A stretch of DNA of 48,247 bases, from the NCBI RefSeq assembly GCF_944327115.1, contig NZ_CALVGS010000052.1, forward strand, positions 1 to 48,247, given 5' to 3'. The notes under the pieces are model-generated. The model saw only the letters and a list, made by a program, of their open reading frames with translations, had not been told where the DNA came from and made no database searches. Shown piece by piece: positions 4,362 to 48,247 of this stretch. Each line of letters opens with the position of its first letter. Positions within the stretch are counted from its first letter, which is position 1. This stretch comes from an uncultured Traorella sp. (GTDB lineage: Bacteria > Bacillota_I > Bacilli_A > Erysipelotrichales > Erysipelotrichaceae). A program made the position numbers and the translations under genes.

Positions 4362-4363
4362 AA

Positions 4364-6828: not shown

Positions 6829-7163
6829 TTCGTATAGATCATAACTTCATTTGGCATACATACGATAGGTGAGAGCGAATCCTTATCATGCCAGCCCATC
6901 TGCTCACAATTGTGATTAGGACATTCAACATCCACGACCCGAAATTTAGAATCCTTGACCTCCAGATGCATGACACCGTAAGAGCCGCTGAATTCATATG
7001 TCTGATCGACATCTATATCAAATTCCAAAATTACTTCATCCCGATATTCCACGACACCGAGATCGCCATGATGCATGCTGCCGATCAGCTGATATACGAT
7101 CACGCCTGCAATTGCTATGATTAATAATCCTATAATCAATTTTATATCTTTTTTGTTCATCAT
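6819..7163 (-). CDS. NusG domain II-containing membrane-anchored protein
   Basis: This 114-residue protein has one N-terminal membrane segment (residues 8-26) followed by an extracellular beta-rich domain. 'VEYRDEVILEFDID', 'YGVMHLEVKDSKFRVVDVECPNHNCEQMGW' (read in part) and 'PIVCMPNEVMIYTKSR' match the stand-alone NusG_II family, including the conserved Cys residues and the 'C.PN...I' ending. It is not the NusG elongation factor; family members often lie near quinone/flavin or FMN-binding membrane genes, which are absent here. GGAG precedes two adjacent ATGs; either could be the start. Confidence 0.8.
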   Translation of the reverse strand: MMNKKDIKLIIGLLIIAIAGVIVYQLIGSMHHGDLGVVEYRDEVILEFDIDVDQTYEFSGSYGVMHLEVKDSKFRVVDVECPNHNCEQMGWHDKDSLSPIVCMPNEVMIYTKSR

Positions 7164-8657: not shown

Positions 8658-9131
8658 ATGAAATATGATCCACACAAATCATCTTTATTTGATTTAGATG
8701 CCAATGTGGCAGCAATTCTGGTCTATCTTCTTCCATGGATGGTCAGCATCATCTCCTCTTCTTTAGGCGGTGTTGCATGGATCATACCTCTTTTAGCGCT
8801 GATCTTGGAAAGAAAAAGTGATTTTGTTAATTTCCATGCGGCAAATGCACTTGCTTTTTTTGTGATAAATGCTGTCATATATTATATCACCGTGTTTTTC
8901 GGTCTTACAGCAGCATTAACCTCTTGGTTAGATAATATGTTCATATTGGGTATCTTTTATATGGGTATCCGTGGAATCATTTCAGTGATTTTGGGAATCA
9001 TCTTCGCAATCATTGAAATCTATTTGGGTGTCGGAAAATTATTTTCCATTATCAGAGCTTATGAATATAAGGACATCAACGTTCCCGTCATCGCTCAGAT
9101 TGCCAGAATCATCTTAAGCTTTAAAAGATAA
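8658..9131 (+). CDS. DUF4870 domain-containing membrane protein
   Basis: This 157-residue protein has four membrane segments. 'NVAAILVYLLPWM', 'ALILERKSDFVNFHAANAL' and a C-terminal Gly/Ile-rich segment are the DUF4870 signature, in which a soluble loop 'K...vrFHa.Qal' follows the second helix. The function is unknown; family members are small membrane proteins of Gram-positive bacteria. AAGGAGG gives a strong ribosome binding site. It is transcribed alone, with a terminator directly after the stop. Confidence 0.82.
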   Translation: MKYDPHKSSLFDLDANVAAILVYLLPWMVSIISSSLGGVAWIIPLLALILERKSDFVNFHAANALAFFVINAVIYYITVFFGLTAALTSWLDNMFILGIFYMGIRGIISVILGIIFAIIEIYLGVGKLFSIIRAYEYKDINVPVIAQIARIILSFKR

Positions 9132-9158
9132 AAGCACAATAGAATGTGCTTTTTTTTA
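9131..9158 (+). terminator. Terminator after the DUF4870 gene
   Basis: AAAGCACA (9131-9138) pairs with TGTGCTTT (9145-9152) and is followed by a T run. The T run reaches into the stop codon of the convergent trmN6 gene. Confidence 0.8.
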
Positions 9159-9815
9159 TCTGCTTACAATTTTTTCTTTCATGACCTTACAGTGTACATT
9201 CCCCTGCTTTACAGCTTCAATTAATATTCCATGAGCCATATCATTTTCACAATCACGGATAAACTGCAAGGTCTTGATCTCCAGTTCATTTTTCCGCATC
9301 TCAACACAGATATCTACCAAACGATCTGAGCGGTGCACCAAATAAAAGCGTCCCTTTTCTTTCAACAGGCGATTTGCACTGGCGCATAGCACTTCTAATG
9401 TAAGATAACATTCATGACGGGCAATCCTTTTATAATCGCTGACATTTAACTGCTTATCGCTGGTAACCTTAAAATAAGGGGGATTACAGATGATCACATC
9501 AACAGGTTCACATACCACATCCTTGATATCTGCATGAATGATCTCAAAATCTTTGATATGATGCTCATTAAGATTCATTTGTGCCAGCTCACAAGCCTCT
9601 TTTTGGACATCAACTCCTATCAGCTTCCCTTTCGTATATAAAGAGGCATAAAGCAAAAGAGCACCATTATTCGTTCCGATATCCAAGACGCGCTCATCCT
9701 CTTTGATTTTCATAAAATGGCCTAACAAAGCTGTGTCCGTGTTCATACGGAACATATCTTTACGCTGATGAAGATAAATATCGGTTCCCGGAAGATAATC
9801 ATAAGTCATATTCAT
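9156..9815 (-). CDS. trmN6: tRNA1(Val) (adenine(37)-N6)-methyltransferase family protein
   Basis: This 219-residue Rossmann-fold methyltransferase has motif I VLDIGTNNGALLL near residue 45, an acidic end of beta 2 (GVDVQKEA) and the catalytic NPPYFK motif near residue 110, the N6-adenine signature. The opening 'DYLPGTDIYLHQRKDMFRMNTDTALLG' (quoted in part) is typical of the YfiC/TrmN6 group, which methylates A37 of tRNA1-Val. Its stop lies in the terminator T run of the convergent DUF4870 gene. Confidence 0.87.
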   Translation of the reverse strand: MNMTYDYLPGTDIYLHQRKDMFRMNTDTALLGHFMKIKEDERVLDIGTNNGALLLYASLYTKGKLIGVDVQKEACELAQMNLNEHHIKDFEIIHADIKDVVCEPVDVIICNPPYFKVTSDKQLNVSDYKRIARHECYLTLEVLCASANRLLKEKGRFYLVHRSDRLVDICVEMRKNELEIKTLQFIRDCENDMAHGILIEAVKQGNVHCKVMKEKIVSR

Positions 9816-9875
9816 AGCAACATCTTATCAAAATTTATATAGAAAATAAAGAATATTTTTTATATAATATCGAGT

Positions 9876-11237
9876 ATGAGCATTAGAAATTATATCGGTA
9901 ACAAAGACTTTTATAAACAAACGGCCCTTCTAGCCATTCCTTTATCGCTCCAGCAATTGCTGGGAAGCGCTATGGAAATGATCGATTCTTTGATGGTCAG
10001 CTGGATCGGTATGATCAGTGCTGTCGGAAGTGCTTCACAGGTAATCATCATTGCCTCTACGATTACATGGGGCATTTTAAGCGGCACCAATATCTTTGCA
10101 TCACAATTCTATGGAAAAAAAGATGATGCCCACTTAAAAAAAGTATTTGGTCTTTCCTTATGCCTGACATCGATAAATGCTTTATTTTGGATGCTCTTGA
10201 TTTCACTGTTTCCGCAAAACCTGATCCGTTTCTACATCAGTGACAATGATATCATCATCCATGCCCTGGATTATTTGAATATCGCACGATTTACGATCCT
10301 TCTTGAAGCAGTTTCTTTTACGTTCAGCTATCATTATCGCTGTGTCAATAAGGCTAATCTTACTTTATATGTCAGTATTTTTTCCATGCTTTGCAATATC
10401 GTCTTAAATTATATCTTTATCTTCGGATGGGGACCTATTCCGGCCATGTATATTTCAGGAGCCGCTTTAGCAACCTTGCTCTCACATTTCTTCTCCATTC
10501 TGATCTATCTCATATACGGCATCAAAACCAAACAGCCGTTTCTTGGCAGCTTTCATGAAATGTTTTCCTTTAGCTTCGACTTTGTCCGCCATATCTTACG
10601 ACGTGTCTATCCGCTCATCATCAACGAAGCCCTATTTGGCTTTGGCAGCTCTTTGATCATCAAAGCACTCGGCGGTCTTAGCCGAGAAAACTTGGAAGCT
10701 TATTATATAGGAGATCAGATTGCCGCTTTCTTCTCCTTTATCATATGGGGCTTTGGAGGGAGTGTCCAGCTCATGTTGTCATATGATCTTGGAAAAGGAA
10801 ATCAAGAAGGAGCCATTCAAAAAAGCAAGCATTTCATGGGTCTGGCTTTTGTGCTGGCAATCTTATTAGCTTCTTTGTTATCCTTATGTTCACCTTTGAT
10901 CATGAGCTTCTATAATATTCAAAATGAAGCTATCTATGCATCCACAAGAGCAGTTTTATTTGTATTTTGTTTAAAGATTGCTTTCCGCTTGTTTAATTTT
11001 ACGATCTTTTCAATATTACGCAGTGGCGGTGATTCCAGGATCATTTCCTTTTTGGATGCGGGAATCATGTATCTTGTGGCCATTCCGTTATCTTTTATAA
11101 GTGTTTATCTTTTTCATATTGAAAGTGTTGCGATCGTATATCTTATTACTCAAAGTGAACAAGTCGTACGTTTCATATTTGGAATCAAAAGAATTCGTAA
11201 GGGTATATGGGCTGCGGATCTGACACATGTCAAATAA
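9876..11237 (+). CDS. MATE family efflux transporter
   Basis: This 453-residue protein has 12 predicted membrane segments in two homologous halves. The N-terminal 'PLSLQQLLGSAMEMIDSLMVSWIG' (in part) and 'SQVIIIASTITWGILSGTNIFASQFYGKKD' (in part) are MATE signatures. MATE pumps export cationic drugs or metabolites using Na+ or H+. There is no ribosome binding site ahead of the ATG, and a -10-like TATAAT (9863-9868) ends only seven bases before it, so translation may be leaderless; the next Met is too far in to be the start. Confidence 0.88.
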   Translation: MSIRNYIGNKDFYKQTALLAIPLSLQQLLGSAMEMIDSLMVSWIGMISAVGSASQVIIIASTITWGILSGTNIFASQFYGKKDDAHLKKVFGLSLCLTSINALFWMLLISLFPQNLIRFYISDNDIIIHALDYLNIARFTILLEAVSFTFSYHYRCVNKANLTLYVSIFSMLCNIVLNYIFIFGWGPIPAMYISGAALATLLSHFFSILIYLIYGIKTKQPFLGSFHEMFSFSFDFVRHILRRVYPLIINEALFGFGSSLIIKALGGLSRENLEAYYIGDQIAAFFSFIIWGFGGSVQLMLSYDLGKGNQEGAIQKSKHFMGLAFVLAILLASLLSLCSPLIMSFYNIQNEAIYASTRAVLFVFCLKIAFRLFNFTIFSILRSGGDSRIISFLDAGIMYLVAIPLSFISVYLFHIESVAIVYLITQSEQVVRFIFGIKRIRKGIWAADLTHVK

Positions 11238-33092: not shown

Positions 33093-33941
33093 TTACTTGT
33101 TCTTTTTTAATTTATGAATCAGGCTTCTTGTCTTTGTTAAAGCAGATTTGGTTTCATTGAAGTTTTCTTTTGCTATTCCATAGTAAATCAGATCTGTTAA
33201 TACCAATGCAGAATTTCTTGAAGAAATTGCACCTAAGCGCAGTTCTTTTTCTTCAATCGGTGTATAAAGCTTTATATCTGCATTTTTTGATAACGTACTT
33301 TTCACATTATACTGTGTTATCGCTATAACCGGAACCTCATTTTCCTTTGCGTAATCTACAGCCAGGTTTACCATCTGGGTTTCACCGCTATAACTGATGG
33401 CTATTAAAATATCTTCTTTGCTGATATGGGCCAATCTGGCTAAAAGCACATCAAAATCCTCATGATAAATTACATTTCTATTAATACGGGTCAGTTTCTG
33501 CATAAAATCTATACAAACAATTCCACTGCCTCCTACTCCGATCAAATAGATATTCTTGGCATGTTTTACTTTATCTATTGCATTCTTTAAATTTGTGATA
33601 TCAAGGAGCTTGTATGTCTGTTGAATATTACGTTCTGATATCTTTTGGATCTTCTTCACCATTACTTCGACAGAATCAGTTTTTTCAATTAAGACATTAA
33701 ATAATTCATCACTTTCATCTTCATCTTTCGCTAAATCTAATTTCATAGCAGTAATACCTTTATAACCCAGCTTTTGCGCAAAGCGAATTGTCGCTGCAGC
33801 TGAAGTACCTGTTTCTTCTGCTAACCTTTGTGTCGTAAATGTCAGGGCTTGTTCTCGATTATTCAATATGTAGTCTGCTATGCGTTTTTCTGTGGCAGTA
33901 AAAGAAGATGATGCTTGTTTTATTTTATATATGCAACTCAC
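33093..33941 (-). CDS. MurR/RpiR-family transcriptional regulator
   Basis: This 282-residue protein has an N-terminal HTH (residues 1-75, 'TATEKRIADYILNN', 'TSAAATIRFAQKLGYKG') and a C-terminal SIS sugar-phosphate isomerase domain (about 120-250, 'NIYLIGVGGSGIVCIDF', 'AISYSGETQMVNLAVDYAK'). The start is GTG at 33941 with GGAGAGAGAGG ahead. As the last gene of the MurNAc locus it is expected to sense MurNAc-6-phosphate or GlcNAc-6-phosphate. It also has its own promoter. Confidence 0.87.
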   Translation of the reverse strand: MSCIYKIKQASSSFTATEKRIADYILNNREQALTFTTQRLAEETGTSAAATIRFAQKLGYKGITAMKLDLAKDEDESDELFNVLIEKTDSVEVMVKKIQKISERNIQQTYKLLDITNLKNAIDKVKHAKNIYLIGVGGSGIVCIDFMQKLTRINRNVIYHEDFDVLLARLAHISKEDILIAISYSGETQMVNLAVDYAKENEVPVIAITQYNVKSTLSKNADIKLYTPIEEKELRLGAISSRNSALVLTDLIYYGIAKENFNETKSALTKTRSLIHKLKKNK

Positions 33942-33969
33942 ACTGTTACCTCTCTCTCCTTATTATAAT

Positions 33970-33997
33970 ATTATAATAACATTAAATTGATTGCCAA
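33970..33997 (-). promoter_or_regulatory. Promoter of the RpiR/MurR-type regulator
   Basis: A -35 TTGGCA (33992-33997) and -10 TATAAT (33970-33975) have a 16-base spacer. A second TATAAT lies at 33962-33967. Confidence 0.5.
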
Positions 33998-34045
33998 AGA
34001 AAGATTAAATTATTAAATAAGCAAGAATATCGGCTGTTTTTTCAT

Positions 34046-34957
34046 TTATTTCTCTTTAAATGCATCTCTTGCAAGTAAATATGCTCCATATACCGGATTG
34101 TGAAGAGGAGCGATGATCTTTATTTTTTCATCACATAATTTGTTCAACGGATCTAAAATATAATGACCCGCTTTCCATACGCCACCGGCATAACTTACTA
34201 ATACATTTTCCGGGAAATCTGATTCCAACGCATGGATCATTTGATACAGATGTTCTGCCGCTTCTTCATATATTACAATTGCAGCGGCATCATTCTCTTT
34301 TGCCAATTCATATGCATATATTGCGAGATTTGCAATTTTATCACGCTTATTTTCCAAAACATTTGAGATGAAAGCTATCATATCATAATCATCATCTATT
34401 TCACATTTTTCCTTAAGATAGGACATAAGTGCTGTTTGAGGTTTTCGTCCGTCACACTGCATGGAATATTCCTGAAGAAGTCTTTTCGCAATCCAATATG
34501 CACTTCCTTCATCTCCGATCTGGAATCCCCAGCCACCACACCGGTCATACTCATCATTATGTTTAGCCAGTGCAATAGATCCTGTACCGGCAATCAACAA
34601 GATCCCATCTTTTCCATTCAATGCTCCTTCCAAAGCAATCTCTGCATCATTTTTTATGATATAAGCATGTCCTTGAAAGCTCTTGGCACATATCCTTTCT
34701 ATTTTTTCCCTGATTTCCTTATTTTTCCCATAACCTGCCAATCCGGCACAAATATAAACTTCATCATCTATATCAATATTATTCTGCATGCATATTTTCT
34801 CTATACCGCTAACCAAAATTTGTATGGCTTCATTTTCTTCGACTTGCAGGACATGACAGCTGGAAAGCGTAAATTCACATACTTTTTCATTTTTCTCTGA
34901 ATAACAAATAAAAGCTGTCTTTGTTCCGCCGCCATCAATTCCTACATAATATCGCAT
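34046..34957 (-). CDS. BadF/BadG-family amino-sugar kinase (N-acetylglucosamine/MurNAc kinase-like)
   Basis: This 303-residue ASKHA-fold kinase has phosphate-1 motif YVGIDGGGTKTAF at the N terminus, 'ILLIAGTGSIALA' near residue 115 and 'CGGWGFQIGDEGSAYWI', all typical of the BadF/BcrA group that includes N-acetylglucosamine kinase and clostridial MurK. With MupG upstream, the natural job is phosphorylating the GlcNAc released when MurNAc-6P-GlcNAc is cut. Its start overlaps the end of mupG by 16 bases. Confidence 0.83.
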   Translation of the reverse strand: MRYYVGIDGGGTKTAFICYSEKNEKVCEFTLSSCHVLQVEENEAIQILVSGIEKICMQNNIDIDDEVYICAGLAGYGKNKEIREKIERICAKSFQGHAYIIKNDAEIALEGALNGKDGILLIAGTGSIALAKHNDEYDRCGGWGFQIGDEGSAYWIAKRLLQEYSMQCDGRKPQTALMSYLKEKCEIDDDYDMIAFISNVLENKRDKIANLAIYAYELAKENDAAAIVIYEEAAEHLYQMIHALESDFPENVLVSYAGGVWKAGHYILDPLNKLCDEKIKIIAPLHNPVYGAYLLARDAFKEK

Positions 34958-36051
34958 ACTTCATCCTTTGCGAAACGAAATTTTTGCCATGGTTTGATGT
35001 AATCCAATAAAAATATTTCATTTTCTCTTATATGTCCCACGACATTCGACATACCCGTATTTTTCATATCATGCAGTGCTATTTGAAGCTCTCCCGCATA
35101 ATGCCCGTATTTACTGCTTTCAATTACGATATCTCCTTTTTGAATCATTTCTTTTGGATGAAATAATTCAAAATCATGCCCTTTATATTTCACTCTGCTT
35201 TGCGTAGAACGAATCATGTTCTCATTTTTATCGCCCCGATTGAAATGCAATTCTTCAAATAATATTTTTTGTTCGGTTTCGGGAACATTCTTTTCCAGCT
35301 TTACATGAAATGTGACCAAAGATAAATCCAAGTTACTCACGCTGTCTAATTCTTCATCTGTTGGATAACAATTAGAAATGATGATATCATCTATACAATC
35401 CATTGCGATAAAATGCTGAACCTGTACATCGATAGGTAAATTTCTATGCATTTCCAATGTTGGTAAACCTTCTGTAACCGGCCATGATCCAAAGGTATTT
35501 TCATTTTGGCTTGTGACAAAGGCAGCGGTATGCAAACCATGCTTTTTAAATCGTTCTGTACATTTTTTAAAGAATTTTATTTCCAGACCTGAATATGCAT
35601 GTGGATAAAAATTATGACAACCATATAAATTATAACGATTTGGCTGATAATCCATGATCGTATCAATGGTACTGACATCATTGCTCATATTAATTTCAAT
35701 TTTTAAATCATATGGATTAAATGTCATGAGTGATTCTTCGCTTCCTGTAAATCCGACATCCAGACGTAATCCGTCAGCTCCGATTTCTTTAAAGAAAGAC
35801 AAATCCTGATAGCTGATTCCTAGTTGTGAAAAAACTCTTGGGGCCACATCTACGATAATTTCAAAACCTTTTTCTTTCGCATATAAATTAATTTCTTTAA
35901 AATCCTGTTTTATCTCTTCCTTGCTTTTTTCTACTGATAATAAACAAGAAAATATTCTTGAAAATCCACGTGCTGCCGCTTTGTCAATATAAGACAGAAT
36001 TGTTTCTTTATCTGATTTTTCCGGATAGATCGATATTCCTAATTTTCTCAT
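34942..36051 (-). CDS. mupG: MupG-family 6-phospho-N-acetylmuramidase (DUF871)
   Basis: This 369-residue protein opens with MRKLGISIYPEKSDKE and has 'GADGLRLDVGFTG', 'INMSNDVSTID' and 'YGCHNFYPHAYSGL', the TIM-barrel features of DUF871, followed by a C-terminal beta domain (about 245-369) ending 'GDIVIESSKYGHYAGELQIAL' (in part). In Staphylococcus aureus, MupG hydrolyses MurNAc-6-phosphate-GlcNAc in the cytosol during cell-wall recycling. Here it follows a lactose/cellobiose-type PTS gene and is coupled to an amino-sugar kinase, with MurQ in the same cluster, which supports that role. Confidence 0.87.
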   Translation of the reverse strand: MRKLGISIYPEKSDKETILSYIDKAAARGFSRIFSCLLSVEKSKEEIKQDFKEINLYAKEKGFEIIVDVAPRVFSQLGISYQDLSFFKEIGADGLRLDVGFTGSEESLMTFNPYDLKIEINMSNDVSTIDTIMDYQPNRYNLYGCHNFYPHAYSGLEIKFFKKCTERFKKHGLHTAAFVTSQNENTFGSWPVTEGLPTLEMHRNLPIDVQVQHFIAMDCIDDIIISNCYPTDEELDSVSNLDLSLVTFHVKLEKNVPETEQKILFEELHFNRGDKNENMIRSTQSRVKYKGHDFELFHPKEMIQKGDIVIESSKYGHYAGELQIALHDMKNTGMSNVVGHIRENEIFLLDYIKPWQKFRFAKDEVCDIM

Positions 36052-36108
36052 ATGTCCTCCTTTTACAATAAATGCCCTGTTTTATTCTAACAGAGCATTT
36101 CTATTTAG

Positions 36109-37464
36109 TTAAGCCTCACTTACTGATACATCCTGACATTCTTCTTTATATAATCCGTTATCATACATTCTGAAGAATGGATAATAAACGATGATCGATA
36201 AGATAATCAACAATACATTTAATACAGCAGCTCTCCAATCATTACCACAAGCAAGGAATGCTCCAATTGGTCCCGGCAGCGTCCAAGGTGAACTGGCAAC
36301 TACACGATTAACAAGTCCCATGGATGTTGCGATCCAGGCAATCAAGCTATTTAAGAGCGGTGCAATAATAAATGGAATGATCAATCTTGGATTTAATACG
36401 ATAGGTGCTCCGAAAATCATCGGTTCATTGATATTAAATATTGATGGAATCAATGCTGTTTTTCCTAAAGCTTTACCATATGCAGAACGTGCTTTAAAGG
36501 CAAATAAGATCGCTAATCCCAATGTTGCACCTGAACCTCCGATCATGACAAACCACTGATAGAATGGCTCAGCAGCAATATTCGTTATCTCTGTACCGGA
36601 AACGAATGCTGTCGTATTTGCTTCCAATAATACCAGCCATAACGGACGAGCCAATGACCCTACGATTGACCAGCCATGAATACCAAATGACCAGAAGAAT
36701 TGTGCTAAGAAGATAATCAAGAATACAGATGGCAAAGAATCTGAAGCCTTGATTAATGGTGAAATAATGGTAGCTACGATAGAATGTACATCAATTCCAA
36801 TAAACATCGTTATCGTTGCGACAACTAATAAAACGATAGCAGTTGGCGTTAATGCTTCAAAAGATCTGGCAACTGAAGCCGGTACCTGAGCCGGCATAGA
36901 AATTTTGAATCCACTTTTCTGTGTAAATCTGAAGACTTCAACAGCAAAGAATGAAACAATAATTCCGATAAACATTCCGGCAGAACCTAAATTACCCATT
37001 GGCAATACAAATCCTGATGGTACTTGTGAAAGAAAATTGGCTAATTCTTCATTTGAAGCCGCTAAAGTTTTTATTCCTTCTGTAACTGCAGGAATCGATG
37101 AAGGAATAATGGTTAACAAGAATGCTAATTCTGAAAGAATTCCTCCTGACAGACCGTCTAAATCATAGGACTGTGCCAATGAATAACCAATACCGAATAC
37201 AGCATATAATGTCATAATATACATGGAAACACGATATGGCATTAATATCTTCGTCTGATTTGCAGCTATAAACTGTGTAATCCCCCAATCACTTGGCATT
37301 GAATTTGGCAAGAAAGCAATAACCATGAACATTGATGAAACAATGATTAACGGTAATGTAGCAATAATACCATCACGAATGGCACGTAAATGACGCTGCT
37401 CTGCTAACTTGGCCATTGGTGTTGATAATTTCTCATCCATAAATTTTGTGATTTTATCAAACAT
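36109..37464 (-). CDS. PTS lactose/cellobiose-family subunit IIC
   Basis: This 451-residue permease has about ten membrane segments. 'QRHLRAIRDGIIATLPLIIVSS' (in part) at residues 22-43, 'FWSFGIHGWSIVG', 'NINEPMIFGAPIVLNP' and 'PWTLPGPIGAFLACGNDWRA' are EIIC-Cel/Lac signatures; the Asn-Glu-Pro motif binds sugar. Relatives carry beta-disaccharides such as chitobiose and cellobiose. In this locus the likely cargo is MurNAc-GlcNAc or a related aminosugar disaccharide (inference). S. aureus and E. coli use the unrelated glucose-family MurP for this task. Confidence 0.88.
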   Translation of the reverse strand: MFDKITKFMDEKLSTPMAKLAEQRHLRAIRDGIIATLPLIIVSSMFMVIAFLPNSMPSDWGITQFIAANQTKILMPYRVSMYIMTLYAVFGIGYSLAQSYDLDGLSGGILSELAFLLTIIPSSIPAVTEGIKTLAASNEELANFLSQVPSGFVLPMGNLGSAGMFIGIIVSFFAVEVFRFTQKSGFKISMPAQVPASVARSFEALTPTAIVLLVVATITMFIGIDVHSIVATIISPLIKASDSLPSVFLIIFLAQFFWSFGIHGWSIVGSLARPLWLVLLEANTTAFVSGTEITNIAAEPFYQWFVMIGGSGATLGLAILFAFKARSAYGKALGKTALIPSIFNINEPMIFGAPIVLNPRLIIPFIIAPLLNSLIAWIATSMGLVNRVVASSPWTLPGPIGAFLACGNDWRAAVLNVLLIILSIIVYYPFFRMYDNGLYKEECQDVSVSEA

Positions 37465-37490
37465 CTTTAATTTCCCTCTCTTTCAATTTA

Positions 37491-37805
37491 TTATTTTAAA
37501 TCGCCTAACTCAGATTTGATCTGAGCTAATAATTTTGATCCGCCTAATGGCGTATAGCCTTGTGGCTGGATCAATACGCAAGGAACCCCGGCATCAGTCG
37601 CCTGAGCCTTCAATACATCGTAACGATGACGAATTTGCGGAGCAACTAACCCAATCGCATACCCGTTCTTAATTTCTTCTGCAAAAGCTTGCGTACTGCA
37701 TTCAGAAACACTCATATCAATTCCATCCTTTTTTGCTGCTTCCTGTAATGCTTTTGCACAAATAGCACTCGACATCCCCTGCGAACAAACTAACAATACT
37801 TTCAT
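37491..37805 (-). CDS. PTS lactose/cellobiose-family subunit IIB
   Basis: This 104-residue soluble protein starts MKVLLVCSQGMSSAI, with phospho-Cys 7 in the C-x-x-G-M-S-S loop, and contains 'VSECSTQAFAEEI' and 'VGLVAPQIRHRYDVLKAQA' (in part), typical of EIIB-Cel. ATG at 37805 follows AAGGAG; the 21-codon extension to 37868 would run through the promoter. It is the first gene after an internal promoter with a cre site. Confidence 0.9.
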   Translation of the reverse strand: MKVLLVCSQGMSSAICAKALQEAAKKDGIDMSVSECSTQAFAEEIKNGYAIGLVAPQIRHRYDVLKAQATDAGVPCVLIQPQGYTPLGGSKLLAQIKSELGDLK

Positions 37806-37839
37806 GTACAATCTCCTTTCTGTTTTTCTAACCATGCTC

Positions 37840-37868
37840 ATTATAGCATTGTAATCGCTTTCCTGCAA
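37840..37868 (-). promoter_or_regulatory. Internal promoter and cre site before PTS IIB
   Basis: A -35 TTGCAG (37863-37868) and perfect -10 TATAAT (37840-37845) are 17 bases apart. GGAAAGCGATTACA (37850-37863 on the minus strand) lies in the spacer and fits the cre consensus at 13 of 14 positions. Confidence 0.75.
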
Positions 37869-37914
37869 TAATATTTTATTAATTTTTTATTTTTTTTGAA
37901 ATATTATTTTACAA

Positions 37915-38277
37915 TTACGCTATTATACCTGTATATACGACTAAAAAGATCAAAAAAGCTATAAATACAGATAAGAGCAATCCAACGATCCAAAATGATT
38001 TACATATCCCTGTCTTTCTTTCTATGAAAAACTGAGAAAAAGCTACCGAAAATCCTGAGAAAAGTCCTCCAAACAAGACGGTAGGCAAACGATAGTCGAT
38101 CTTCATCCACTCACATGCCTGAGGTATCAAAAATAAAGATCCAAATGTAACGATAAGAATAAGAAAAGCACTCTTATATCCGAAAATGGGAATATCATAG
38201 TCTGTCACACCTGCAGAGGATCTATATTTTCTCTGCATATCCTTATTCTTTACTTGCCAAGTTTTTAATTCTGCCAT
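37915..38277 (-). CDS. Small membrane protein of unknown function in the MurNAc locus
   Basis: Starting at 38277 (MAELKTWQ) gives about 120 residues: a charged N-terminal 40 residues with KNKDMQRKYRSSAGV, then three membrane segments (near 35-52, 63-80 and 95-115). GGAGG lies 12 bases before this ATG, or three bases before an alternative at 38286. Either start overlaps the end of the alpha/beta hydrolase gene. I do not recognise the family. Its position, upstream of the IIB promoter, links it to the hydrolase rather than to the PTS. Confidence 0.6.
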   Translation of the reverse strand: MAELKTWQVKNKDMQRKYRSSAGVTDYDIPIFGYKSAFLILIVTFGSLFLIPQACEWMKIDYRLPTVLFGGLFSGFSVAFSQFFIERKTGICKSFWIVGLLLSVFIAFLIFLVVYTGIIA

Positions 38278-38980
38278 AAAAATCATGAACCTCCTTTCGA
38301 ACGCTTTCTGTATATGAAATTCTGCTGAAACAATGATCAGCATCAGGAATTAAAATCACTTCAGCTCCTGTATAAGCCTTCTTATAATTATCCAGGCTTT
38401 CCATTGTCACATATTGATCTTTTGTGCCCTGAACAATTTTTATAGGTCCCTGATACCTGTCAATTCCACTAAAATATTCAAAATTTTTACTTTCTTCCAT
38501 CAGCTTTGGATTTATTTTAAATCCATTTACTTCTAAATTACTTTCATCCATTGAATCACGTGTCATTTGAAATAATATTTCATCAAAATTTCCGGCCGGT
38601 GATAATAAAAACAATGATTCTACATTCATCTTTTTAGCCACATGAGAGGCGATAACCCCACCCAAACTAAAAGCAAATAAATGTACCTTATAATTTTCCT
38701 TCTGAAATTGTCGAACTATATATTGGCATTGCTCAATTTGACTCTTGATACTTTCTTCTTCAAAAAAACTACCATCACTATCCCCGGAACCTAAAAAGTC
38801 AAATCGATATACTGAAAAACCTTCCTGACAAATATCATCTCCAAATGTACGAAGCATAAAGTGGTGATCCGCTTTATTACCCATAAACCCATGTATGATA
38901 CAAACGATATCATGACCTGTTCCTTCATGCAAAAAGCCACGAATTGTTTTATCCTGAATTTTAATTTCTTTATATTTCAT
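38243..38980 (-). CDS. Alpha/beta hydrolase (serine esterase-like)
   Basis: This 245-residue cytosolic enzyme has the oxyanion HGFMGNKADHH motif (about 30-40), nucleophile Ser in AFSLGGVIAS (near residue 105), a candidate Asp in 'QGTKDQYVTM' and the His in 'DADHCFSR'. Family relatives are lipases, esterases and cinnamoyl/acetyl esterases. Lying in a MurNAc salvage cluster, it could remove an ester such as an O-acetyl group from imported sugars (speculation). It is nine bases downstream of the IIA gene. Confidence 0.8.
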   Translation of the reverse strand: MKYKEIKIQDKTIRGFLHEGTGHDIVCIIHGFMGNKADHHFMLRTFGDDICQEGFSVYRFDFLGSGDSDGSFFEEESIKSQIEQCQYIVRQFQKENYKVHLFAFSLGGVIASHVAKKMNVESLFLLSPAGNFDEILFQMTRDSMDESNLEVNGFKINPKLMEESKNFEYFSGIDRYQGPIKIVQGTKDQYVTMESLDNYKKAYTGAEVILIPDADHCFSRISYTESVRKEVHDFYGRIKNLASKE

Positions 38981-38988
38981 TTATATTC

Positions 38989-39312
38989 CTACTTATTTTC
39001 TAAATCATATAATCGTTTATTCATACGGATCAAATTTTCCGCGAGTGTACAAACTTCAATAGCCGCCATTAAATGATCCTGTGCATGAACAAATAAAACC
39101 GTGACTTCATGATGTTTGCCGGCAGCTTCTTCTTGAATCATTTCTGTCTGCACCTTATGTGCAGATACCAGACTTTCATTGGCCTCATTTAATAATTCTT
39201 CGGCTTTCTCAAATTCTCCCTTTTCTGCACAAGCAATTGCCTCATAAGCCAATCCTTTCGCATTACCGCCCTTGCTTACTAATTCAAATACAATTAATTC
39301 CATGTTTTCCAT
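38989..39312 (-). CDS. PTS lactose/cellobiose-family subunit IIA
   Basis: This 107-residue all-helical protein contains the active-site FVHAQDHLMAAIEV: the first His is the phosphorylated residue and the following Asp is the metal ligand in EIIA-Lac. 'GGNAKGLAYEAIACAEKGEFEKAEELL' (in part) completes the three-helix bundle seen in the trimeric family. ATG at 39312 is chosen because GGAGG lies ten bases upstream. It sits between murQ and the hydrolase gene, apart from IIB and IIC. Confidence 0.9.
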   Translation of the reverse strand: MENMELIVFELVSKGGNAKGLAYEAIACAEKGEFEKAEELLNEANESLVSAHKVQTEMIQEEAAGKHHEVTVLFVHAQDHLMAAIEVCTLAENLIRMNKRLYDLENK

Positions 39313-39328
39313 TCTAATGAAACCTCCT

Positions 39329-41773
<2,445 letters not shown>

Positions 41774-41907
41774 ATTTTGATAAATAATTTCAATTTTTAT
41801 TTTACAATCTCCAAAATAATGCCTGTACTTTTGATATGATCTCCCTCATTTTATGCCGGAAGATTCCCGGTAATAAAAAAATTTATAATCAAACTTTTAT
41901 AAAAAAT

Positions 41908-41944
41908 CACAACAGAAAACTCCTGTTTGCCAAACAAACAGGAG
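41908..41944 (-). terminator. Terminator of the lipoprotein gene cluster
   Basis: On the minus strand CTCCTGTTTG (41935-41944) pairs with CAAACAGGAG (41920-41929) around a five-base loop, followed by TTTTCTGTT. The stem is identical to that at 33002-33027. Confidence 0.8.
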
Positions 41945-41972
41945 CTATATTTAATATTCATCATTTTAAAGC

Positions 41973-42413
41973 TCAATCTGACACTTTATAAGCATCAAAA
42001 TATTCATACATCATATCCAGTTCCTCCAATAAACGATCCATGTAATTTTCATTTGCATCTTCATTAGGAACATACTTGACACCATCAATGCTTACACCGG
42101 ATTCATTAACCAATACGATCGTTTCTTCACATCCCACACAATAACCATTCCAATTGTAAGTCAGTCGATATATCCAATCTCCTTCAAATGCTTCATCCGT
42201 TTTTTCTATATTACGGGAAACATTAGGAAAGAACATGATCATGGGATAACCATTTGCCCGATTGACAAATATATACCCGTCATCATCGACATATTCAAAT
42301 TTAACACCTAAAGCGCTGTAAAAAGAATCTTCCGGAAACTTATCCTGAACCTGTGAGCACCCGGCAACGATAAGAGCAAACATCATCCATACTACACATA
42401 TTATTTTCTTCAT
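41973..42413 (-). CDS. Putative lipoprotein of the 'TYNWNxYCxxCEETIVL' family, copy 1
   Basis: This 146-residue protein has a lipoprotein signal peptide with lipobox IVAGC (Cys 19). The remaining domain is acidic and contains RLTYNWNGYCVGCEETIVLV and 'SGVSIDGVKYVPNED'. It is clearly a paralogue of the next gene upstream, sharing the CxxCEETIVL block and the 'KYVP' segment, and ends in a helical acidic tail. I do not recognise the family. The two Cys could bind metal or form a disulphide outside the cell. It is the last gene of the 46-42 kb group. Confidence 0.65.
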   Translation of the reverse strand: MKKIICVVWMMFALIVAGCSQVQDKFPEDSFYSALGVKFEYVDDDGYIFVNRANGYPMIMFFPNVSRNIEKTDEAFEGDWIYRLTYNWNGYCVGCEETIVLVNESGVSIDGVKYVPNEDANENYMDRLLEELDMMYEYFDAYKVSD

Positions 42414-42426
42414 ACACTCACCTGAC

Positions 42427-42921
42427 CTATTCTACATCTTCTTTGTATTCACCATATTCTTCGTACAGATAAGCGATCTGATCGAGCACAAGCTGATAAT
42501 ATTCCTCAGGATCAGAGCTTTCAGGAACATATTTGAAACCATTGACACTTAAACCATCTTCACTCAACAGCACAATTGTTTCCTCACAGTTGTCACAATA
42601 CTCATTCCAATTATATGTAATTTTATAAAGCCACCGATCATTCGCTTCTTCATCGGTCTTACTAAATTTTAAGCCATAAAAATAAGTTAATAATGGATTA
42701 CCCGTTGCTCCGCTATCCACATATAAATATTTTTCATTTTCTTCTTCAATATATTCAAATTTTGCACAATTAGCATATGTATAATTATCAAAAATTGTTC
42801 CTCTGTCAGGTTCCCTCCACCTTATCATCTGAATAACACCAACGACACTGATCAGCAATAGACAGCCTGCCACAACAATAAATAACCGAAATACCAATGA
42901 TTGTCTTAATTTCTCTTTCAT
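42427..42921 (-). CDS. Membrane-anchored paralogue of the 'TYNWNxYCxxCEETIVL' family, copy 2
   Basis: This 164-residue protein has one N-terminal membrane segment (about residues 10-30) and no lipobox followed by processing signals of the usual kind. The extracellular part has YKITYNWNEYCDNCEETIVLL and 'GLSVNGFKYVPESSDPEEYY', aligning with the lipoprotein 13 bases downstream. The pair looks like an old tandem duplication in which only one copy kept lipoprotein anchoring. No function is known to me. Confidence 0.65.
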   Translation of the reverse strand: MKEKLRQSLVFRLFIVVAGCLLLISVVGVIQMIRWREPDRGTIFDNYTYANCAKFEYIEEENEKYLYVDSGATGNPLLTYFYGLKFSKTDEEANDRWLYKITYNWNEYCDNCEETIVLLSEDGLSVNGFKYVPESSDPEEYYQLVLDQIAYLYEEYGEYKEDVE

Positions 42922-43008
42922 ATGATCTCCTTATATTATCCGATACGAAACCATCAAAATAGATACTACTATATCAATTCGTTTACACTCATAATCTCTA
43001 AATACTTA

Positions 43009-43500
43009 TCATACATTTTGTATGATCACATCCAAGTCTTCTTCCGCAAATAGCTGATCATTTAAATATACCGTTATCTTCAACGTTTTTGGTATTTCCA
43101 AATTTTCATAAATATCAGCAGGAACCAAATAAGTCATGATAGGTACTTGTAAAGATTGGTCTTTGCTTATTTTTTTAGGTAATATTTCAGACTTGGCACT
43201 TGTAAAACCGGTTGTTCCCGCAAAAAATTCAGGAAACGTAATCTTAATATTCATTTTATCATGTTCATCTATATTTATATTCGTATTACTGGATATCTTG
43301 AGATAAAAATTTATACTTTTACTCTCTTCTTTATCTATATTTTCTGTGAATAGAGTGATATTCTCAAAATTCAACTTATAATCTTTTTTGTCTGGTATTG
43401 TGACCGTTTGATTTTGATATGAACGATTTCCTGCAAGAAGAAAGATACAACAGCCTATACTCATCAAAAATACTGTAATGAATAATTTTCTTTTAAGCAT
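43009..43500 (-). CDS. Exported protein of unknown function, 163 residues
   Basis: The N terminus MLKRKLFITVFLMSIGCCIFLLAG is a signal anchor or signal peptide, with two adjacent Cys but a poor lipobox. The rest (about 135 residues) is predicted beta-rich, with 'NFENITLFTEN', 'INFYLKISSNTNINID' and 'TLKITVYLNDQLFAEEDLDVII' (in part), which is reminiscent of an Ig-like beta-sandwich. I do not recognise the family. It lies 24 bases downstream of the next lipoprotein gene, in the same direction. Confidence 0.6.
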   Translation of the reverse strand: MLKRKLFITVFLMSIGCCIFLLAGNRSYQNQTVTIPDKKDYKLNFENITLFTENIDKEESKSINFYLKISSNTNINIDEHDKMNIKITFPEFFAGTTGFTSAKSEILPKKISKDQSLQVPIMTYLVPADIYENLEIPKTLKITVYLNDQLFAEEDLDVIIQNV

Positions 43501-43524
43501 ATTATATCCCTCCCTTCTGTACCA

Positions 43525-44262
43525 TCAATCATCAGATATCTCTTTTTCATAAGGACCTGCTGTTTCTCTGCAACTGCCATCCAGATACAAAGCTTTTAAA
43601 TCTTCCCGATCCTCCGGTATATCTTCATAACGATCATAAGTATGGATCTGTCCTACATACTCTACTGGTATCGTTTCTTCCATATTACTGCAAACAATCG
43701 TAACATAAAGCGTTGACATACCTTTCTCATATTCTTCTTCACTAAAATTATTCTTCACTCTGGCATTTCCCATATTTCCTAATGTCTTATCAAAATAATA
43801 TGCTACAAATTCATTAGAATCATATTTTACCGGTATTTCAAAGTCTTCAAAATATGGAATAATAAAACTATCAAATGTCATATAACCCGGCTCTTGTTTA
43901 TAATAATCAACAAGTTTTTGATCAAGTGAAAAAGAAAATTTTTTAATATGAATCATTTCTTCATAAAGTGGCGCTATAACGATCTGATAACGATAAATAT
44001 AAGATTCACCATAATAAGGGTCATCATAAAATACTTTTGAAACATCTAATATTTTTACTTGAAAATGTTCTCCCTTTACATAAGTATCTGCATCAGCCTG
44101 AAAGAAATTTTTCATGCTTTCTGTCAAGTCTGGATTATTATTGTCAATAAGCTTTAGTTGTTTAGGCGTACAAGCCAGAAGTAAAAAACCAAGCAATATC
44201 ATTCCATATTTTTTTATCTTCTTGCATTTATTTCTCAATATAAAACTACTATTACCTATCAA
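43525..44262 (-). CDS. Putative lipoprotein, 245 residues
   Basis: From a TTG at 44262 (GGAGG eight bases upstream) the protein has a basic N-terminal region of about 20 residues, then MILLGFLLLACTPKQ, a convincing lipobox with Cys near residue 30. The ATG at 44313, which would add 17 residues, has no ribosome binding site. The mature part is acidic and Tyr-rich ('DDPYYGESYIYRYQIVIAPLYEEM', in part) with no domain I recognise. It follows the ABC ATPase gene by about 75 bases and may be that transporter's surface partner. Confidence 0.6.
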   Translation of the reverse strand: MIGNSSFILRNKCKKIKKYGMILLGFLLLACTPKQLKLIDNNNPDLTESMKNFFQADADTYVKGEHFQVKILDVSKVFYDDPYYGESYIYRYQIVIAPLYEEMIHIKKFSFSLDQKLVDYYKQEPGYMTFDSFIIPYFEDFEIPVKYDSNEFVAYYFDKTLGNMGNARVKNNFSEEEYEKGMSTLYVTIVCSNMEETIPVEYVGQIHTYDRYEDIPEDREDLKALYLDGSCRETAGPYEKEISDD

Positions 44263-44336
44263 CCTTCTATCCTCCATTTCTTTCAATACATGTTCATCTA
44301 AAATATCTTGCATAAAACTGACTCATCTATCTTTAT

Positions 44337-44984
44337 TTAATTCTCATTAAACTTCACTTTTTCTAAATGGTTTTTTGTTAATTCTAAAATTTCACAATCA
44401 AACTGTGAAACCTCTTCAAGATAATGGCTTGTAAGAATCATCGTTTTCCCATTTTTCTGCTCATTTCGAATAATCTCAATCAATTTTTTCTTCACGCTGT
44501 GATCCAATCCATTAAAAGGCTCATCCAAAATAATATACTCAGGGTCTTCCATAAATGCCTGAATTAACCGTAATTTTTGCTTTGTACCCATCGAATATTT
44601 ACGATAGGTACGATCAATTTCACCCTTCATTTCAAAGATATCCGCCCATTTATATAAATCTTCTTTACCACATATCTTTTTTATAGATGCAATTATTTCC
44701 AAATTTTTTATTCCACTTAAATATGGAACAAAATCAGGATTATTGATACAAACTCCAGCATTTTGAATAAAATCATATTCCTTTCCCAATTGCTTGCCGT
44801 CAATCAATATTTTTCCCGAATCACATAATGAAAAACCACAAATCATTCGTAACAATACGCTCTTTCCTACACCATTATCTCCCAGGATAACATAAGTTTT
44901 CCCTTTTTCAAACGTATAACTGAAATCATGAAATAAAGGTTTATTTTTAAATCCTTTTGTAACTTTGACTAATTCAATACTCAT
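44337..44984 (-). CDS. ABC transporter ATP-binding protein
   Basis: This 215-residue ATPase has Walker A GDNGVGKSVLLR (about 35-46), a degenerate signature YSMGTKQKLRL instead of LSGGQ, Walker B YIILDEPFNGLD, and the switch His in 'ILTSHYLEEV'. The 'S-x-G-x-x-Q/K-K-L' signature is typical of drug/bacteriocin self-protection and ABC-2-type exporters. The two membrane genes immediately upstream (11-base gap and 23-base overlap) are the obvious permease partners. Confidence 0.88.
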   Translation of the reverse strand: MSIELVKVTKGFKNKPLFHDFSYTFEKGKTYVILGDNGVGKSVLLRMICGFSLCDSGKILIDGKQLGKEYDFIQNAGVCINNPDFVPYLSGIKNLEIIASIKKICGKEDLYKWADIFEMKGEIDRTYRKYSMGTKQKLRLIQAFMEDPEYIILDEPFNGLDHSVKKKLIEIIRNEQKNGKTMILTSHYLEEVSQFDCEILELTKNHLEKVKFNEN

Positions 44985-44995
44985 AATATGTACCT

Positions 44996-45694
44996 CTACA
45001 CTATTTCCTTTCTATATTTTAAGATAAGATAATAGATCACACTGCAAATAATTAAACAAATGATATTTTGTATCATGCCCATCATTGAATTTGAAAAGAA
45101 TATTAAATCTAAAAAATGAAAATTAATATCTAACATTATTATAAAGATATAAATGATCAAAATAACCACTGTAATAACATTAACATTAAATCGAGTTAGA
45201 AGTATCTTTGCCAATATTGACATAGAAGCATATATACATCCATATTTAACACTAAATATAAAAAGCATAATAAAGCTTGTAAATGAAAAGTTATAGTTTC
45301 TGATTAAAAACACAAAAATCAAGCTGGCAAGAAGAATAGATAGAAATATCAGTATAAATTGTTCGATACCTTTTTTTACGATTTTTTTTAATTCATATTC
45401 AATATAGTTTTTCTTATTTTGAAAGCGATATATTATAAAACTATCCAGCCCATATTCATCGGATACCTGTACTACCATATTGATGCTTATAAGCGTAAAT
45501 AATAATGAATAGAATATAAACAGACGAATTTGAGCCATTGGATTATTTGTAAACTGAAAAGAAGCAGCTTTCAATATTTCAGATAATTCATTTCCTTGAA
45601 AATAATAATTTTGTAACTGCGACTCACATAAAATAAGTAAAAATATAGAAATATATAAAATTTGAATCAAAACTAATTTAATCGTCTTCATCAT
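44996..45694 (-). CDS. ABC-2-like membrane permease A
   Basis: This roughly 232-residue protein is very hydrophobic with six predicted membrane segments, the first followed by an outside loop ('YYFQGNELSEILKAASFQFTNN', in part), the layout of small ABC-2 or LanEG-type permeases. The charged segment 'YRFQNKKNYIEYELKKIVKKG' (in part) is the usual cytosolic coupling region before helix 3. ATG at 45694 is likely; the frame also reads back to a TTG at 45700. It overlaps the preceding permease gene and is 11 bases from the ATPase gene. Confidence 0.75.
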   Translation of the reverse strand: MMKTIKLVLIQILYISIFLLILCESQLQNYYFQGNELSEILKAASFQFTNNPMAQIRLFIFYSLLFTLISINMVVQVSDEYGLDSFIIYRFQNKKNYIEYELKKIVKKGIEQFILIFLSILLASLIFVFLIRNYNFSFTSFIMLFIFSVKYGCIYASMSILAKILLTRFNVNVITVVILIIYIFIIMLDINFHFLDLIFFSNSMMGMIQNIICLIICSVIYYLILKYRKEIV

Positions 45695-46331
45695 GAACAA
45701 TCTCTTTTCCCTTTACTATCAACCAATAAATCAATACATACAGCAACAAGTAAATAACAAAGTGTGACAGCTGCATATTCGGACCGCTCGGATATATACC
45801 ATAAAATATATTTATTGATTGAAGAAAGTCATTATTCGTCATAATTGAGGAACATAATACTATTGGAAAAAAAATATAAGACCAATCTTTTTTGCCAATC
45901 TTTTCAAAATATATTATTATAAAAATAAACAACAGAGCTGTAAAACACTGATAACAATAAACTTGTATCACTTCAAATAAATTACACATATGTGTTGTAA
46001 AAAGAACAAAACAGATAGGAACTAAATAAGCCAGAACCAAAACCATATTACGACAAATTCTATCAACGACATAATCTAACCAAAGAGTATATCTTGTAAC
46101 CATCATTTCCATAGGTTCCTGATTAAAAAACAATAATACAAATTCACCTAAATAAATAATTAAAAGAGGCTGAAAATTACTTCCTATACTGTAATACATT
46201 TCTCCATTAAAATAGCCTAAAACCCTTGAAATATCAAAATACAAAAAGAATGAAAAAAGAATAATAATTGCAATTGTTATGTAATTAAAATAAAGTGAAA
46301 TTTTCTTTTTAATAATATTTAACATATCCAT
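45678..46331 (-). CDS. ABC-2-like membrane permease B
   Basis: This 217-residue protein has six predicted membrane segments. After helix 2 comes 'EPMEMMVTRYTLWLDYVVDRI' (in part), a cytosolic coupling stretch comparable to that in permease A. Together they look like the two half-permeases of an immunity or export ABC transporter. The ATG at 46331 (or 46325) has only a poor ribosome binding site and is overlapped by a 25-codon frame with a good one, suggesting translational coupling. Confidence 0.72.
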   Translation of the reverse strand: MDMLNIIKKKISLYFNYITIAIIILFSFFLYFDISRVLGYFNGEMYYSIGSNFQPLLIIYLGEFVLLFFNQEPMEMMVTRYTLWLDYVVDRICRNMVLVLAYLVPICFVLFTTHMCNLFEVIQVYCYQCFTALLFIFIIIYFEKIGKKDWSYIFFPIVLCSSIMTNNDFLQSINIFYGIYPSGPNMQLSHFVIYLLLYVLIYWLIVKGKEIVHDEDD

Positions 46332-46504: not shown

Positions 46505-47335
46505 TTACATGATTCTTTCCTTATTTTTCTTAATATAATAATAAATTATTCCACCTATTATTACTAAAACAATTACATGATAACAGACAAGATAGGTTGT
46601 CATGAGATACGGATAAGTCGATGGTGCCGTATAAGCCAATACCGAATAATAATCCAGCTCTCCTGATCCCATCAAAGCACTGATTACATAAAAGAGAAAT
46701 GGAATCAGTACGATCAAATACTTCTTATCTGTTCTTAATGATACATATATCGTCAATAAGCCAAACTCCAAAGCAATCAAAAAATATGATACAAATCCTT
46801 CGGCCAAATAATACAAATGATAGTGTTCAATCAGTGTTTCTCTGTCAAATATATCCGCAAACATTGTATAACCGCCAATGATTTCTTCACCAAGCAAACT
46901 TCTTGACGGGAAATAGGCAGCTGCCCATTCAAATACGATGACATATCCTATGTAAACAGCCAAAGCGCCAATCAAGGCGGTCAATATTATATTTTTTATC
47001 AATTCTTTTGAATATTTATTTTTTCTTATTGCCGTAAAATGCATCACTTTATCTTTATATACAAGAAATGAAAATACTGAATAGGTAGATATGAGAGGAA
47101 TCAGAATCTGCCATAACCCCATACCAAACATAAAAGTTGTTTCTAAAGGCGTACACATCGCAAAATATATTTCATTCGTATTATTTAATTCATTCACAAA
47201 ATAAAGCTGTTCCGGTGTTGGCTCACCAAATCTGGCCCTTAAAGAATCTCCTTCTTGGGTATAAAACATAATTGCTGATAAAACAATAAATAGTATGACA
47301 GTTTTTATAAAGTAGCGAATCCATATTCTTTTCAT
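46505..47335 (-). CDS. ABC-2-like membrane protein, copy 1 (complete)
   Basis: This 276-residue protein has a first membrane helix (about 11-27), an outside segment of about 45 residues with 'ARFGEPTPEQLYFVN', then five or more helices. 'FLVYKDKVMHFTAIRKNKYSKELIKN' (in part) is a cytosolic coupling stretch seen in bacteriocin-type ABC-2 permeases. Its C-terminal 171 residues are almost the same as those of the partial copy at 47731-48247. It begins 15 bases after a 72-residue peptide gene, with at best a weak ribosome binding site, so it is probably coupled to it. Permease or immunity protein are both possible. Confidence 0.7.
   Translation of the reverse strand: MKRIWIRYFIKTVILFIVLSAIMFYTQEGDSLRARFGEPTPEQLYFVNELNNTNEIYFAMCTPLETTFMFGMGLWQILIPLISTYSVFSFLVYKDKVMHFTAIRKNKYSKELIKNIILTALIGALAVYIGYVIVFEWAAAYFPSRSLLGEEIIGGYTMFADIFDRETLIEHYHLYYLAEGFVSYFLIALEFGLLTIYVSLRTDKKYLIVLIPFLFYVISALMGSGELDYYSVLAYTAPSTYPYLMTTYLVCYHVIVLVIIGGIIYYYIKKNKERIM
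46508..47021. repeat. Direct repeat, copy 1 (about 514 bp)
   Basis: This segment aligns without gaps to 47734-48247 at an offset of 1226 bases. By eye the encoded proteins differ at about 15 of 171 residues. The repeat ends at the gene's stop codon; flanking sequence differs. Confidence 0.85.
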
Positions 47336-47350
47336 AGTTTTATAGATCCA

Positions 47351-47569
47351 TTAGAAAGCAAATCTGAATCCTGAAATTTTTGATTTTACATTTTCTAGGC
47401 AGTTAGGAATTATTCCGCTACTTGTAGATATGGATGGTATTGTTAAACCTGTAACAACTGTTGTACCTGAATAAGTTATTGTTTTACCAGTCCGCGTCTT
47501 TGTATTTGCTTCCACATTTGTTAAAAATGAGCCAGAAATTATAGGTAATGATATTCTATTTTTTTTCAT
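47351..47569 (-). CDS. 72-residue Ser/Thr-rich peptide of unknown function
   Basis: ATG at 47569 follows GAGAGGTG at a good spacing; the longer frame to 47593 includes that site. The peptide starts MKKNRISLPIISGSFL, with NVEA then NTKT, which could be a weak signal peptide cleaved after 'VEA'. The remainder is rich in Ser, Thr and Gly (TRTGKTITYSGTTVVTG) with one Cys (IIPNC) and a basic end FRFAF. There is no double-Gly leader and no relative I can name. It is placed between two copies of an ABC-2-like membrane gene. Bacteriocin, signal peptide and degenerate remnant are all possible. Confidence 0.5.
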   Translation of the reverse strand: MKKNRISLPIISGSFLTNVEANTKTRTGKTITYSGTTVVTGLTIPSISTSSGIIPNCLENVKSKISGFRFAF

Positions 47570-47594
47570 TTTCACACCTCTCAATTCTTCCACA

Positions 47595-47618
47595 CAATCT
47601 ATTTGTTTTTATAGATTG
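47595..47618 (-). promoter_or_regulatory. Inverted repeat upstream of the peptide gene
   Basis: CAATCTAT and ATAGATTG form a perfect eight-base inverted repeat with an eight-base loop, ending about 25 bases before the peptide's start codon. There is no T run on the minus strand, so an operator or RNA hairpin is likelier than a terminator. Confidence 0.4.
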
Positions 47619-47730
47619 AATCTTCCAGAAATCATCAAAAATCCGTTACCTTCTAAAATGGAACCTCGCAATAATACATTAGTAGAGCCGTTTAAGAATT
47701 ATTATCTTTCATGACTATAAATCAGTCAGT

Positions 47731-48247
47731 CTATATGATTCTTTCCTTATTTTTCCTAATATAATAATAAATTATTCCACCTATTATTACTAAAACAATT
47801 ACATGATAACAGGCAAGATAGATTGTCATGAGATACTGATAAGTTGATGGTGCCGTATAAGCCAATACCGAATAATAATCCAGCTCTCCTGATCCCATCA
47901 AAGCACTGATTACATAAAAGAGAAATGGAATCAGTACGATCAAATATTTCTTATCTGTCCGTAGTGATACATAAATCGTCAGCAATCCAAATTCCAAAGA
48001 TATCAAAAAATATGATACCAATCCTTCTAGTAAATAATAGAGCCGATAATGTTCAATCAGTGTTTCTCTGCCAAATATATCGGCAAACATCGTATATCCG
48101 CCAATAATCTCTTCACCCAGCAAACTTCTTGATGGGAAATATGCAGCTGCCCATTCAAATACGATGACATATCCTGCATATATTGCTAAAGCTCCGACCA
48201 AAGCAGTAATTACGATATTCTTGATCAATTCTTTTGAATATTTATTT
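47731..48247 (-). CDS. ABC-2-like membrane protein, copy 2 (N terminus outside window)
   Basis: The frame is open to the window end; in-frame codons before the ATG at 48228 encode NKYSKEL, as in copy 1, so that ATG is internal. The visible 171 residues contain 'VFEWAAAYFPSRSLLGEEIIGGYTMFADIF' (in part) and five membrane segments identical in layout to copy 1. The stop is TAG here and TAA in copy 1. The high identity means a recent duplication or ongoing gene conversion. Confidence 0.75.
   Translation of the reverse strand, partial: NKYSKELIKNIVITALVGALAIYAGYVIVFEWAAAYFPSRSLLGEEIIGGYTMFADIFGRETLIEHYRLYYLLEGLVSYFLISLEFGLLTIYVSLRTDKKYLIVLIPFLFYVISALMGSGELDYYSVLAYTAPSTYQYLMTIYLACYHVIVLVIIGGIIYYYIRKNKERII
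47734..48247. repeat. Direct repeat, copy 2 (extends past the window)
   Basis: Gap-free match to 46508-47021 at an offset of 1226 bases, starting at the gene's last sense codon. The unit between the copies carries the 72-residue peptide gene and its 137-base upstream region. Confidence 0.85.

Follow-up and report, generated by a model that had tools for sequence, protein, structure and literature searches.

Candidate bacteriocins with an adjoining ABC complex

Genes of the lactococcin 972 family are followed by genes for a membrane protein and an ABC ATPase; the family's products carry Sec-type signal peptides and are exported by Sec, and the membrane protein is read as the immunity protein (PMC4004548, PMC12345188). 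A layout of a similar kind lies at one end of the window, by which we mean the whole 48,247-nt stretch of DNA analyzed here, the entire contig C52, one of 133 in a 2.23 Mb genome of an uncultured Traorella sp. An earlier note on this DNA described a 72-residue Ser/Thr-rich peptide gene sandwiched between two near-identical membrane genes, likened it to a bacteriocin/immunity cassette, and saw in the duplication a hint of an expanding array, possibly with different peptides. The cassette layout holds up; the 72-residue frame as its peptide does not, being the remnant of a 133-codon gene for a secreted protein.

The locus at the contig end

Read from the contig end on the minus strand, the locus consists of a partial membrane frame (171 aa), an interval of 395 bases, a membrane gene (276 aa), two further membrane proteins of 217 and 234 aa, and an ABC ATPase of 215 aa. 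The partial frame (47731 to 48246) comprises the C-terminal 171 codons of a second copy of the membrane gene, copy 2, whose 5' part lies past the contig end; the complete copy 1 (46505 to 47335) encodes the operon's first membrane protein, with about six predicted TM segments. Over the 171 residues the two copies are 91% identical in protein and 89% in DNA; alignment thus bears out the gene coordinates, the identity and the tandem duplication reported in the earlier note. The membrane gene is present in only two copies in this genome, both in the window. The second membrane protein (45678 to 46331; about five predicted TM segments), the third (44996 to 45700; about six) and the ATPase (44337 to 44984) have orthologs in the sister species T. 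massiliensis, at positions 8906-9544, 9522-10226 and 10236-10874 of its locus (L009), with protein identities of 77, 66 and 85%, respectively.

Beyond the ATPase, about 11 kb (33093-44313) of sugar and amino-sugar genes (PTS, a MurNAc-6-P etherase-like gene, a kinase) and lipoprotein-like genes part it from a dehydrogenase/transaldolase pair which, in T. massiliensis, directly follows the operon. Two adjacent small genes in this segment (41973-42413 and 42427-42921), lipoprotein-like or membrane-anchored, have in common the stretch ITYNWN-YC--CEETIVL, then KYVP, an apparent tandem duplication.

A conserved operon in the Erysipelotrichales

What does the unit look like where it is whole? In several genera of Erysipelotrichales, a gene for a secreted protein precedes a set of membrane-protein genes, usually three, and the gene of a LanF-like ATPase; this operon family appears undescribed. 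A profile built from six of the membrane proteins finds members in 19 of the 273 genomes of the family, and one built from eleven secreted proteins finds matches in 14 of the 316 genomes of the order. The membrane gene has a secreted frame immediately before it in T. massiliensis (a tandem pair, L009 7194-7580 and 7603-8004), G002, G228 (two loci), G094, G127, G198 (two), G204, G193, G201 and G313, and more distantly in G035. Many homologues thus have a full-length secreted gene at this position, which settles one doubt of the earlier note, that no homologue might keep a frame there. Downstream of the membrane gene come more membrane proteins and then the ATPase, where the stretch examined extends to it; in some genomes one larger frame replaces two genes, or one permease is absent.

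The secreted proteins have about 110 residues after a signal-like segment, in intact homologues a hydrophobic N-terminal stretch behind basic residues, and have a C-terminal motif in common, YxLxARRxxIxDPxTxVxGxWxP. They are predicted to be β-rich; the model of the T. massiliensis protein is all β strands, at low confidence (mean pLDDT 56). In genus g61, dN/dS of the secreted gene is about 0.07-0.18, and the full-length secreted protein is therefore under purifying selection.

The 72-codon frame as a broken secreted gene

The frame between the two membrane copies (47351 to 47569, minus strand) has an AGAGGTG-type ribosome-binding site before its ATG and ends 15 nt before the membrane ATG, as the earlier note had it; what cannot be upheld is that this is an intact peptide gene. 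At the same spot, T. massiliensis keeps not a 72-residue frame but one for a 133-residue protein (the gene at L009:7603-8004) with a hydrophobic, signal-peptide-like N-terminus, the stop codon of which overlaps the start of the membrane gene (ATGA). In a DNA alignment, the window frame matches the first 61 codons of this gene (up to ...CLE), and an 82-base core differs at no more than two or three positions. Then about 50 codons (~150 nt) are missing; a few in-frame codons of a VKAK stretch follow, after which about 8 bases are lost on balance, and the shifted frame runs into an early TAA. What was once the C-terminus persists in another frame (47332 to 47370, minus strand): it reads DSDLLSNGSIKL, against DSGLISNGSIKL in T. 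massiliensis, and the overlap of its TGA with the membrane gene's ATG is the very one seen in the sister species. Aligned locally with the T. massiliensis DNA, this tail scores 80 over about 80 columns, the best of 500 shuffles reaching 28, and it has substitutions of its own. The family's C-terminal motif is lost from the 72-residue frame, and its signal-like segment is both shorter and less hydrophobic than that of T. massiliensis (hydropathy peak over 12 residues, 1.57 vs 2.68). Comparison with the sister species thus identifies the frame as a decayed fragment, the wreck of a gene for a secreted protein of about 133 residues, and this copy of the peptide is most likely dead.

Directly upstream lies a second candidate remnant (47609 to 47692, minus strand), the last 27 codons and stop of another secreted-protein gene, NGSTNVLLRGSILEGNGFLMISGRFNL. 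Its end, ISGRFNL, resembles the VTGKFKP* end of the other T. massiliensis secreted protein (paralogue A); a score as high arose once in 2000 protein shuffles and four times in 1000 DNA shuffles, and it is from this one short match that the kinship is drawn. As judged by sequence comparison, remnants of at least one secreted-protein gene are certain to lie in the interval, and those of a second are probable. Promoter and terminator scans of the interval gave nothing better than chance. An intact secreted gene was not found in this genome by either a profile or a single-protein search, of which the former missed even the fragment and the latter found the fragment only.

If the gene is broken, why has its frame stayed open? 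The 72-codon frame could be a leader ORF that is still translated, yields no useful product, and feeds ribosomes to the membrane gene by translational coupling, a doubtful reading, though a serious one, and compatible with the explanation that we prefer below. The ribosome-binding site and a stop 15 nt before the membrane ATG would then account for the open state; the membrane ATG itself has no obvious ribosome-binding site immediately ahead of it, the ancestral ATGA overlap is typical of coupling, and the membrane gene is intact. However, the open state of the frame proves little, because the first part came with the old gene and what lies past the deletion junction amounts to only a dozen codons or so.

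Recurrent loss of the secreted gene

The window is not alone in pairing a damaged secreted gene with an intact membrane gene; other genomes show this too. In the second operon of G193, the middle of the secreted gene has been deleted with both ends left and the membrane gene intact, while another G193 operon is whole; the secreted gene of G302 has an in-frame TAG; and the secreted protein of G116 is shortened. No recognizable secreted gene was found upstream of the membrane gene in G025, G028, G035 (at C1:67638), G024, G101, G118 and G139, nor at one locus each of G193, G197 and G198. This makes about ten loci without a secreted frame, G231 being uninformative since the contig end cuts its locus. 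Where there is no trace of a secreted gene, the locus may not have lost one at all: it could represent the ancestral state or a replacement. Where the earlier note envisaged an expanding array, possibly with different peptides, the secreted genes visible here are losing function.

An upstream regulator and a short peptide in T. massiliensis

In T. massiliensis, the two secreted genes are preceded by a gene for a 421-aa regulator, by its sequence of a putative quorum-sensing type, and by one for a short secreted peptide ending in VICPGPGCDPS.

Short secreted peptides adjoin regulators of 400-430 aa at several places: at 3839-4042 and 6880-7101 of the T. massiliensis locus, at 9426-9620 of L053, and in L054, on contig C130 of the window's own genome (G000), where the peptide gene lies just downstream of a regulator gene (3583-4824, minus strand). 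The peptides end in two-cysteine motifs (VICPGPGCDPS, V[IV]CSPECWG[IV] and IICPQPLCKQL), and related regulators have HTH and TPR matches. In one of the peptides the C-terminus is conserved between species and the middle has diverged, as in RRNPP pheromone precursors.

Toxin and self-protection, or signal and response?

We favor, with fair but far from full confidence, the view that the locus derives from a conserved bacteriocin-type operon with ABC self-protection in which the secreted gene is broken here, reducing the unit to its immunity part. By analogy with described systems, the secreted protein is probably antibacterial and the membrane pump probably protects the producer. Because the protein has a signal-like segment and the ATPase lacks a peptidase domain, we infer that it is exported by the Sec pathway; with a signal of Sec-type appearance and no peptidase domain in the ATPase, the ABC complex would not be needed for export. 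Once outside, the protein would attack neighboring bacteria as a bacteriocin, perhaps at the cell envelope like lactococcin 972; the ABC-2-like complex would clear it from the producer's own membrane; and lineages that lose the toxin would retain the pump as orphan immunity.

Could the secreted protein instead be a signal or a surface protein, which the ABC complex traffics or to which it responds, for example as a cell-envelope stress module? We consider this rather unlikely, although the bacteriocin activity is argued by analogy, and layouts of a small protein plus an ABC complex fit secreted signals or envelope-stress functions too. The regulator of quorum-sensing type and the short peptide encoded immediately before the secreted genes of T. 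massiliensis would suit such a role, as they would population behavior in general. However, the ABC complex is often retained without the secreted protein, which is easier to explain as immunity, and the ATPase has affinity to lantibiotic-protection subunits.

If the secreted proteins are indeed bacteriocins with dedicated self-protection, the operon family, which has a defined motif in its secreted protein and no name in Pfam or NCBIfam, would offer a signature by which candidate bacteriocins could be searched for in gut Erysipelotrichales, and remnants that have lost the toxin and kept the pump would mark strains likely to be immune but non-producing. The window itself holds a decayed copy, and its own contribution is modest.

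Duplication, mosaic history and the assembly gap

Copy 1 of the membrane gene is a mosaic. Its bases 616 to 831 are nearly identical to copy 2 and its bases 330 to 621 to the T. massiliensis gene; outside these blocks it is clearly diverged from each, respectively, with sharp switch points near 330 and 616-621. From the sequence, this is the pattern expected from exchange between tandem copies and between species, and mis-assembly could also yield it. On the bacteriocin-operon reading, the unit would have been tandemly duplicated, the copies would have swapped DNA, and the downstream unit would have lost its secreted genes.

A second contig of this genome, C15, ends within a regulator gene (C15:11173-12066, within L053) whose T. 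massiliensis ortholog lies upstream of the locus, and C15 and C52 therefore probably flank one gap. The 5' part of copy 2 is probably concealed in this gap, along with whatever secreted genes are still whole; past 48247, the unassembled DNA may hold one such gene.

An assembly or sequencing artefact, in which a tandem repeat has been collapsed or mis-joined and the true genome is intact here, would account for a contig that ends inside a repeated gene and for switch points as sharp as those of copy 1, yet it is improbable: the lesion, which lies several hundred bases away from the contig break, combines a deletion, a separate frameshift and point changes, its out-of-frame tail has substitutions of its own, and a similar internal deletion is found in G193, a genome that is a single contig. 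Least credible, to the point that we give it very little weight, is that the old gene has yielded a functional new peptide, a shortened bacteriocin or signal: the frame is open, has a ribosome-binding site, and retains a core nearly identical to T. massiliensis over 82 nt, but its signal-like segment is weakened, the family motif is gone, the ancestral C-terminus is left out of frame, searches turned up no homologue of the 72-aa form, and nearby mosaic blocks of similar identity mean that exchange explains the core without selection on the peptide.

Comparison with known systems

Scans of Pfam, NCBIfam and PADLOC assigned only the ATPase; none of the peptide, the secreted proteins and the membrane proteins could be placed. 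Searching PDB sequences with the regulator and with the secreted family brought up nothing significant, a fold search with structure models gave no match at E ≤ 0.001, and the conserved core has no exact match in the viral collection. The membrane proteins match no permease family model, and their structure model (mean pLDDT 47) is not good enough to reveal an ABC-2 fold. A weak match in G003, located in a glycan-cluster membrane protein, was set aside.

One lead, and a lead only, is DUF2712 (PF10916): in G041 (L076), a small protein ending ...LTAENNKYNENVYLVSGHW is followed by two membrane proteins of 260 and 207 aa, close in size to those of the operon, a layout like that described here, whereas the profile comparison with the secreted family is not significant and no member of the secreted family matches PF10916. 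This DUF2712 gene (G041:C1:945392-945631) is itself frameshifted, another small-secreted-protein/membrane layout with a decayed first gene.

The LanFEG lantibiotic self-protection transporters likewise have small separate permeases. The LanF-type lantibiotic protection model TIGR03740 was the best NCBIfam match of all seven ATPases tested, one in every operon tested; the scores (115-146 bits) are under half the cut-off of 309.75 and show a general affinity, not a LanF assignment. Unlike LanFEG, the operon usually has three permeases, none matching the permease models. By inspection, no lantibiotic precursor or modification enzyme is present among the ORFs of the 24-48 kb part of the window or of the T. 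massiliensis locus, in agreement with the earlier note, which saw no modification enzyme.

Membership in the lactococcin 972 family was considered and rejected: the secreted family matches neither PF09683 nor other models of lactococcin 972 (a profile comparison with three PF09683 members aligned 15 columns at 25% probability, which is not significant), and the window's membrane proteins (217-276 aa) do not match DUF1430, the bacteriocin-associated integral membrane protein family. The conserved motif is a different one, and the single large DUF1430 protein has its counterpart in usually three separate membrane proteins of ~200-300 aa. It is a tentative proposal, put at slightly less than an even chance, that the operons encode an undescribed group of unmodified, Sec-secreted β-sheet bacteriocins of Erysipelotrichales with their own multi-permease ABC immunity, under the control, in Traorella, of an RRNPP-like regulator and its two-cysteine pheromone, and often left as immunity-only remnants. 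In layout, they resemble the clusters of lactococcin 972, Sil of Streptococcus iniae and mediterrocin of Mediterraneibacter gnavus, in which likewise a small protein, there with a signal peptide and here with a signal-like segment, is encoded with no modification enzyme, and a multi-spanning membrane protein and an ABC ATPase come immediately after its gene.
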